Translations under genes and position numbers: made by a program | NCBI GenBank assembly: GCA_015056385.1 | Contig: SVGI01000014.1 | Coordinates: 1 to 33,837 of the forward strand | Direction: 5' to 3' | DNA from: Clostridiales bacterium | GTDB taxonomy: Bacteria > Bacillota > Clostridia > HGM11327 | Length of the DNA stretch: 33,837 nucleotides | The notes under the pieces: generated by a model | Database searches by the model: none | Told to the model about the DNA's origin: nothing | What the model saw: the letters and a program-made list of their open reading frames with translations, nothing else | Part shown: positions 3,344-33,790 of the stretch, piece after piece | Layout: every line of letters begins with the position of its first letter | How positions within the stretch are numbered: position 1 is the first letter of the stretch

Positions 3344-3375
3344 TAATGGGAACGACGTAATTATCGTTCCCATTA
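3344..3375 (-). promoter_or_regulatory. 12-bp intergenic hairpin between infB and rbfA
   Basis: A perfect 12-bp stem (TAATGGGAACGA at 3344-3355, TCGTTCCCATTA at 3364-3375) with an 8-base loop begins 2 bp past the infB stop codon. On the minus strand it is followed by TATTTAATTG, a weak U-tract. It could be a leaky terminator or an mRNA processing or stabilising element separating infB from rbfA levels. Confidence 0.55.
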
Positions 3376-8272: not shown

Positions 8273-8312
8273 CATGCAACGAAGAGTGGGTTTCCCCACT
8301 CTTCGTTGCATG
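8273..8312 (-). promoter_or_regulatory. 18-bp perfect hairpin at the predicted 5-prime end of the rimP operon mRNA
   Basis: The arms 8273-8290 and 8295-8312 are perfectly complementary over 18 bp. On the minus strand the loop is GAAA, a stable GNRA tetraloop. The predicted transcription start from the promoter at 8317-8345 is near 8310, inside the outer end of the stem, so the RNA would begin double-stranded. The downstream bases ATAAAGGAAGG are not a U-tract, so it is a poor intrinsic terminator for the gene at 8383. A role in mRNA stability or leader control is inferred. Confidence 0.75.
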
Positions 8313-8382: not shown

Positions 8383-9888
8383 TTAACGTTTATATCGGCT
8401 GTAAGCGGACATTTTTATCTTTTTAGACTTGAATTTACGGTTATCTGAGTATTTCTTTCTGATTTTCCTCCTGTTTCTTACACCTGAGGTAAGTTTGAAC
8501 ATCAGCGCAATTATAAATCCCAGCAATATTAAACACATCGCAGATAAAACAACGACAGCATAATTCAACGTCTGATACCATTTCGGAACCAGTATATCGG
8601 GAACCGCCTCGTATTTGTCTACGGTCTTCCCTGCAATAATCTCCACCTCACCAAGGACCCTGTTTTGAAGCATATAAACAATTTTACCGATACGGGTACC
8701 CTTAAGTATTGGTGCTTCATAGTATTCCTCGTCCTCGCGGACGTTATCAATAGTAGGACGCTTAAATGCAGGATCTATCGCAACGTATGTGGTAATTCGG
8801 GGAATATCGGTAACCTTTATAAAGAAACGCGGAGTGGATACACACATTAACGGCAAATACTCCATAGACGCATCCGATGGGTTTTCTACATGTTTATAAG
8901 CGATAATATCTCCTGCAAAGGAGGGTTTATACAAAACATAGAGCGAATATACGTATTCGGCAACATTCTTTATAGCGTTGTATGATGAATTTTTCTTCGG
9001 GGACTTCAGGGTAACAATAATAACGGAATATCCGTTTCTCGTTACAACGCTGGCAAGACATTCGCCTGCATTCTTTGAATACCCGTACTTAATACCTGCA
9101 AAATCAGCATCGTAATATGAGCTATTTTCAACAACCAGCCCGTTTGTATTCACCCAATCTCTGTACTGTGTTTTACCATTCTTTGATGAGCTCCAATCAG
9201 GATATTCCATTGCGACGATCATAGAAACCTTATTCAAAAAGCTGTAAGCAAAGTACTCGCGGCATATAAGAGCGTAGTCGTAAGCCGTAATATAATGGGT
9301 TTGGGCATAGCCTGAATGAGGGTGAGAAAAATTTGTACCGGTAGTGCCGTATGTTCTTACCTCGTCGTTCATCATTTTAACGAAAAAATCAATAGCTTCT
9401 TTATCATAAGAGTATTTACTGTCTGCAATACCGCCAAGCTCTTTTCTTCCGATATACACAGCAAGCGTCATTGCCGCATCACTTCCGTTGCCTATAAGCA
9501 GCGCATAAAAAAGATCCTTTACAGATATTTCCTCACCTATGTCAAGACCTGCTACATTAAGTCCGGCGGGAACCTGCCTTATTTCTTTTCCGACCTTTAC
9601 AATTTCATTTGAATACGGAACGCCGTTGCTATCTTTATTTAGATTTTTGAAGGCAACAAGTGCAGTAACTATTAACGTTAATTCAGCAGGATATAATTTT
9701 TCGTCTTCATTTTTACCGAAAAGCAGCTGTGAATTATCTAATTTAATTGCGGCAACAGCACCGCAACTTAACCCAGGGACCTTTGGAGCTTCAAAAAGAT
9801 CATCATACGAAGCTGCACCTGCAACAGTAAACGAATTGCAGGTGAACAAAATAATTAAAGCACAAAAAAGAGCCGTAAATTTCTTCAT
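8383..9888 (-). CDS. Membrane-anchored D-alanyl-D-alanine carboxypeptidase homologue (S11), probably inactive
   Basis: This 501-residue protein has the shape of DacF/PBP5 carboxypeptidases, which trim the terminal D-Ala of peptidoglycan stem peptides. It has a signal peptide (about 1-26), an S11 domain (about 36-300), a beta-rich C-terminal region, one membrane helix (about 440-462) and a very basic cytoplasmic tail. The family catalytic motifs are all altered. SxxK (normally AS-L-T-K) reads PAELTL at 67-72, with Glu69 and Leu72 replacing Ser and Lys. SGN reads NGS at 134-136. KTG reads KYG at 267-269. The frame is intact and the fold-defining context is kept, so a binding or scaffold role is more likely than decay; that is inference. 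I chose ATG 9888 because it starts the signal peptide and follows GGAGAAAAG; an upstream ATG at 9927 lies before the predicted transcription start. Confidence 0.85.
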   Translation of the reverse strand: MKKFTALFCALIILFTCNSFTVAGAASYDDLFEAPKVPGLSCGAVAAIKLDNSQLLFGKNEDEKLYPAELTLIVTALVAFKNLNKDSNGVPYSNEIVKVGKEIRQVPAGLNVAGLDIGEEISVKDLFYALLIGNGSDAAMTLAVYIGRKELGGIADSKYSYDKEAIDFFVKMMNDEVRTYGTTGTNFSHPHSGYAQTHYITAYDYALICREYFAYSFLNKVSMIVAMEYPDWSSSKNGKTQYRDWVNTNGLVVENSSYYDADFAGIKYGYSKNAGECLASVVTRNGYSVIIVTLKSPKKNSSYNAIKNVAEYVYSLYVLYKPSFAGDIIAYKHVENPSDASMEYLPLMCVSTPRFFIKVTDIPRITTYVAIDPAFKRPTIDNVREDEEYYEAPILKGTRIGKIVYMLQNRVLGEVEIIAGKTVDKYEAVPDILVPKWYQTLNYAVVVLSAMCLILLGFIIALMFKLTSGVRNRRKIRKKYSDNRKFKSKKIKMSAYSRYKR

Positions 9889-9930: not shown

Positions 9931-9959
9931 ATTATACCGCTAACCAATGTGAATTTCAA
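9931..9959 (-). promoter_or_regulatory. SigmaA promoter of the S11 carboxypeptidase homologue
   Basis: TTGAAA (9959-9954), a 17-base spacer and TATAAT (9936-9931) on the minus strand form a strong promoter between the pseudouridine synthase and the S11 gene. The S11 gene therefore need not depend on read-through. Confidence 0.8.
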
Positions 9960-33698: not shown

Positions 33699-33751
33699 TT
33701 CTAACATATGTTATATAATAAAAAAGCAAGAACGTATTGTTGAAATGATAT

Positions 33752-33790
33752 AATGATGGTAGACACAAAAAAGTCTACCATCATTATTTT
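33752..33790 (+). terminator. Strong intrinsic terminator after the Ppx/GppA gene
   Basis: A perfect 13-bp stem (AATGATGGTAGAC at 33752-33764, GTCTACCATCATT at 33773-33785) with an 8-base A-rich loop is followed by ATTTTT. A TATAAT overlaps the left arm but has no matching -35. The remaining bases to the window edge show no supportable gene. Confidence 0.87.

Follow-up and report, generated by a model that had tools for sequence, protein, structure and literature searches.

Introduction

S11 peptidases are a textbook penicillin-binding family, and an active member is expected to carry SxxK, which supplies the nucleophilic Ser and the general-base Lys, together with SxN and KTG. SxxK enzymes without Ser69 and Lys72 (numbered as in the protein described here) can neither hydrolyse peptides nor be acylated by penicillin through the family mechanism. 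Peptidase folds that lack catalysis, or pseudopeptidases, frequently serve as regulators of active relatives or as scaffolds for complexes, according to a review on metallopeptidases (PMC11266112). A search of the open literature found no described S11 pseudoenzyme, a result that is not proof of absence. The protein presented here belongs to the S11 family and has lost most of its catalytic residues.

Results

Architecture and catalytic motifs

We analysed a 33,837-nucleotide stretch of DNA (the window), contig 29 in a genome bin of 1.45 Mb and 84.6% completeness. An open reading frame on the minus strand (8383-9888) encodes 501 residues from an ATG at 9888; starting instead at an in-frame GTG (9927) would lengthen the product by 13 residues, but the MKKF... 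signal peptide begins at the ATG. The product matches Pfam Peptidase_S11 (PF00768) over residues 38-296 with 94.2 bits, against a cut-off of 27.6, and PBP5_C (PF07943) with 24 bits. With phmmer it matched B. subtilis DacB and the Pseudomonas and E. coli PBP5 structures. Signal peptide, S11 domain, PBP5_C and C-terminal membrane anchor make up a complete DacF/PBP5-type architecture, with the following parts.

9931..9959, minus strand: promoter-like site of sigma-70 type (TTGAAA-17-TATAAT, matching at 11/12 positions), within the 95-bp gap that follows the rluD-like gene
8383..9888, minus strand: S11 D,D-carboxypeptidase homologue (pseudoenzyme), 501 aa, from the open reading frame, Pfam and fold
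9808..9888, minus strand: predicted signal peptide, residues 1 to about 27 (MKKFTALFCALIILFTCNSFTVAGAAS), from sequence and a model helix at 2-18; its end is approximate
9001..9777, minus strand: Peptidase_S11 domain, residues 38-296 (PF00768)
9673..9684, minus strand: SxxK position, E69-L70-T71-L72, from alignment and codons
9481..9489, minus strand: SxN position, N134-G135-S136, from alignment and codons
9403..9480, minus strand: residues 137-162 (DAA...YIGRKxLGGxxD...YD), candidate new interface, with the top conservation among the four members of the order
9082..9090, minus strand: KTG position, K267-Y268-G269, from alignment and codons
8614..8727, minus strand: end of the PBP5_C domain, residues 388-425 (PF07943)
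8497..8565, minus strand: C-terminal transmembrane helix, residues 442-464 approximately, from sequence and a model helix at 437-481
8386..8496, minus strand: basic cytoplasmic tail, residues 465-501 approximately (about 37 residues), from sequence; active relatives have similar tails

A preliminary description of this locus, made from the sequence alone, held that all three catalytic motifs are altered. The SxxK position reads GAA TTA ACG TTA (E69 L T L72), leaving neither the nucleophilic Ser nor the general-base Lys, and the SxN position reads AAC GGA AGT (N134 G S136), which is not an SxN motif. At the KTG position, AAG TAC GGG (K267 Y G269), the Lys is kept and the Thr replaced. The claim stands for SxxK and SxN, and for KTG only in part. 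Every one of 52 comparison homologues has S69, K72, S134, N136 and K267 unchanged, and T268 is the least strict motif position among them (94%). Single sequencing errors do not account for the changes, because Ser-to-GAA and Lys-to-TTA each take at least two base changes. Sequencing or assembly error as the general cause was also rejected, since several two-base changes lie within an intact frame and independent orthologues are degenerate too.

Predicted fold

An AlphaFold2 model built on a 56-sequence alignment has a mean pLDDT of 89, with the S11 domain mostly at 94-99 and a dip to 71 at residues 151-160, and contains one C-terminal membrane helix. The closest solved folds found with Foldseek are PBP5, PBP6, B. 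subtilis DacB (3mfd_A, target TM-score 0.81) and Streptomyces K15 (0.89). In the predicted structure E69 falls at the beginning of helix 68-81, residues 134-136 right before helix 136-151, and residues 267-269 in strand 263-271. The altered motifs are thus placed at the family positions for SxxK, SxN and KTG, and the catalytic groups are not merely displaced in the alignment. The preliminary description had named Ser and Lys supplied by other residues as an outcome that would overturn it; we rejected this candidate, as the secondary structure of the model and the alignment both put E69, N134 and K267 at family sites. The status of the protein as a pseudoenzyme is well supported.

Orthologues and a new active site

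Four genomes of the order to which the window belongs were compared, all from one family; the other three (G001-G003) form a single sister genus and are bins of uncultured Clostridia, one from water-deer rectum. The S11 orthologue is present in all four, and each copy retains an open frame together with its signal peptide, its membrane anchor and its basic tail. In a maximum-likelihood tree the four members form one clade (100/99), which nests in a subclade whose remaining S11 proteins are membrane-tailed, keep their motifs intact and come from other clostridial families. Scoring the motifs across relatives, as had been proposed, showed that the three other orthologues are degenerate (SITK/NAD/IAG in G001, SMAK/DAD/MAS in G002 and TVAK/DAD/IAG in G003), against 52 intact comparison homologues. 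Since SxN and the Thr of KTG are changed in all four, their loss may be ancestral. Loss of both the Ser and the Lys of SxxK is confined to the window lineage, G003 having Thr in place of Ser.

These alignments bear on the idea that the protein is still an enzyme, with E69, S136 and K267 as a new catalytic set acting on another bond. All three residues sit at old pocket positions, and two of the S11 domains fused to PBPs in the sister genus likewise have an acidic residue in place of the nucleophile (see below). None of the three, however, is common to the orthologues of the order, where conservation would be expected. We consider an alternative active site very improbable for this reason.

Constraint and relocated conservation

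Substitution rates were compared with those of ribF and the S11 paralogues. For the pseudoenzyme, dS is saturated and dN ranges from 0.42 to 0.52 inside the sister genus and from 0.81 to 0.85 between sister genus and window; the corresponding values are 0.43-0.51 and 0.60-0.66 for ribF, and 0.19-0.45 and 0.46-0.65 for the S11 paralogues. Branch lengths follow the same pattern: the window tip measures 1.13, versus 0.91 and 0.47 in the paralogues, and the stem of the three sister-genus orthologues 1.36, versus 0.35 and 0.53. By these estimates the gene is under constraint, yet evolves faster than ribF and the S11 paralogues, and partial relaxation is possible because of this faster rate.

The distribution of invariant positions differs from that of active homologues. 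The four pseudoenzymes share 4 of 13 positions around SxxK, none of 7 at SxN, 1 of 10 at KTG, and 14 of the 26 in residues 137-162; over the same windows, four sets of active homologues have 10-12, 3-5, 7-9 and 4-7 invariant positions. In these alignments the peak of conservation is relocated from the catalytic motifs to residues 137-162, the reverse of all four active reference sets. Enrichment of invariant positions in residues 137-174 of the pseudoenzyme core gave p = 5e-7 in a Fisher test, a value to be read with the region having been chosen after the data were seen and with n = 4, three of them congeners.

A shift of this kind would be expected from repurposing, but not from simple decay. 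If decay were under way, paralogues would have made catalysis dispensable, and the gene would be drifting under folding and membrane-safety constraint alone. The pseudoenzyme does evolve faster than paralogues and neighbours, and its motif residues vary among the four members, as they would under drift. Against this, all four frames are open over more than one amino-acid change per site, dN is far below saturated dS, the promoter-like site, signal peptide and anchor are retained, and a new peak of conservation has arisen at 137-162. Slow decay is in our judgement unlikely. The maintained pseudo-enzyme of the preliminary description is borne out by an order-wide clade, four open frames, intact paralogues and the relocated peak, and two outcomes bearing on the checks it had named, dN well below a saturated dS across the four orthologues and open frames in the three sister-genus relatives, are consistent with it. 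At the level of the order, across four genomes, a clade whose genes remain intact and constrained has lost catalytic residues.

Paralogues and fused S11 domains

An active paralogue had been anticipated elsewhere in the genome, and the window genome has two further S11 genes, with ASITK/SAN/KTG and ASTTK/SGN/KIG. Both paralogue clades were found in all four genomes of the order, with the S, K, S, N and K residues intact. The KIG paralogue (L002:1108-2262, minus strand) carries KIG for KTG, with SxxK and SxN intact.

In the sister genus, class A PBPs of 1555-1660 aa carry a C-terminal S11 domain after the transpeptidase:

L076:961-5940, plus strand: class A PBP with C-terminal S11 domain
L077:5462-10126, minus strand: class A PBP with C-terminal S11 domain
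L078:5645-10474, minus strand: class A PBP with C-terminal S11 domain

The motifs of the fused domains are degenerate to varying degrees (SMTK/SGA/KTG in G001, DMTT/SGA/KTA in G002 and ELTN/SAA/VTG in G003). No other open frames of such fusion length appeared among the best rows from 391 genomes of the class, and an S11 fusion domain was looked for and not found in the class A PBP of the window genome itself. A separate origin of the fused domains is likely, because their best outside matches are other S11 proteins. They resemble the window protein in being degenerate S11 domains of the same order, and two of the three swap Ser for Asp or Glu and lose the Lys, as the window protein does; they differ in being fused to a glycosyltransferase-transpeptidase and in lacking the YIGRKxLGG block. 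The earlier suggestion of an allosteric partner of a real PBP is plausible, with a single line of indirect support, the degenerate S11 domain carried by the class A PBPs of the sister genus. A broader reading, possible if rather doubtful, is that this order has seen at least two independent conversions of S11 domains into modules that regulate peptidoglycan synthases without hydrolysis, one giving the free membrane protein of the window and the other a C-terminal domain of class A PBPs, with an acidic residue for Ser in members of both.

The sensor hypothesis and the basic tail

The preliminary description had also proposed a peptidoglycan or antibiotic sensor and drawn attention to the basic tail as a possible site of partner binding. 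Because Ser69 is missing, the window copy should not undergo the usual beta-lactam acylation, and an acidic residue occupies the nucleophile position. A non-covalent sensor could still hold a stem peptide or beta-lactam uncleaved in the old cleft and signal through the membrane helix and basic tail. Retention of the fold and of K267 is in keeping with such a role, and the sister-genus copies, which keep SxxK or TxxK, might be acylated without turnover. The cleft, however, is the least conserved part of the protein across the order, and the acidic residue replaces Ser69. Arg/Lys/Tyr-rich tails are also found on catalytically intact S11 relatives across the class, so the pseudoenzyme is not unusual in having one. 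Pfam gave no signalling domain for the protein, and neither a kinase nor a regulator was found next to the gene. The sensor idea is weak for the window copy, and non-covalent sensing in general seems to us distinctly unlikely; the earlier stress on sensor and tail is probably wrong.

Genomic context

The window gene lies between an rluD-like gene and a rimP-nusA-ylxR-infB-rbfA-nrnA-truB-ribF cluster, in which ylxR is named by position and size only. The promoter of its own that had been ascribed to it corresponds to the TTGAAA-17-TATAAT site (11/12) at 9959-9931, which is promoter-like by sequence; across the whole region, such sites are not overrepresented. The gene is upstream of rimP in the window and downstream of ribF in the sister genus, where small genes lie between ribF and the S11 orthologue. 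Conserved synteny in the order was rejected, being only partial, and the intact S11 relative in G006 is located elsewhere. As gene position varies, neighbours give little functional information.

Several further features were observed in these regions. The small genes of the sister genus are two on the opposite strand (L006:591-854, minus strand, and neighbours in L007 and L008), one matching Coat_F (PF07875) and the other without a Pfam match. A perfect 18-bp hairpin with a GAAA loop (window 8273-8312, minus strand) lies between a promoter-like site at 8345-8317 and the rimP start, with a predicted RNA fold of -35.1 kcal/mol (z = -10). It is not followed by a T run and gave no Rfam match, and no such perfect hairpin occurs in the G001 stretch around rimP. 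Perfect inverted repeats are also present at 3344-3375, in the infB-rbfA gap, and at 33750-33787, near the contig end (12-bp and 15-bp stems).

Discussion

We favour, as the probable explanation, a retained pseudoenzyme that acts in wall synthesis as a binding module without catalytic activity, with partner and ligand inferred. The ancestor would have been an exported D,D-carboxypeptidase of the DacF/PBP5-like S11 family, anchored at the outer face of the membrane. SxN and the KTG Thr were probably lost first, before the lineages of this small clostridial order split, and the window lineage would then have lost the Ser and Lys of SxxK as well. With the residues now encoded, D-Ala-D-Ala hydrolysis and penicillin acylation should no longer be possible by the family mechanism. 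The fold appears to have been retained while constraint moved to the helix and loop after SxN (137-162, YIGRKxLGGxxD), the likely working surface. Such a module may dock onto a wall-synthesis protein or peptidoglycan and position or tune real PBPs, and trimming of stem peptides would be left to the two S11 paralogues with catalytic residues. Export, an outer-face S11 fold, a membrane anchor and a conserved, probably exposed loop are all in keeping with a module that binds at the wall-synthesis machinery.

The results suggest that a small order of uncultured gut Clostridia keeps a repurposed wall-enzyme relative, shifted from cutting to partner binding. A retained non-catalytic S11 clade amounts to a natural separation-of-function experiment on which parts of a D,D-carboxypeptidase matter without cutting, and it flags residues 137-162 as a possible docking surface. 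The class A PBP link, if true, would suggest that carboxypeptidase folds regulate wall synthesis without catalysis.

Compared with known systems, the window protein shares with DacF, DacB and PBP5 (PF00768 plus PF07943) the fold, the order of S11 and PBP5_C, the signal peptide and the C-terminal membrane anchor. It differs from them in having replacements at the nucleophilic Ser and general-base Lys of SxxK, at the Ser and Asn of SxN and at the Thr of KTG, and in that conservation has ceased to centre on the cleft. Closer relatives are the S11 proteins of clostridial families f4, f41, f49 and f61 (L005, L056-L068), with about 30-36% identity in search alignments, which belong to the same subclade and have the same anchor and Arg/Lys-rich tail; unlike the window protein, all keep SxxK, SxN and KTG. 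The pseudopeptidases reviewed in PMC11266112 are metallopeptidases, whereas the window protein is an S11 homologue, and both keep a peptidase fold without catalysis. The order-level retained S11 protein is thus a new form of a known family, confirmed as a pseudoenzyme and with a putative binding role.
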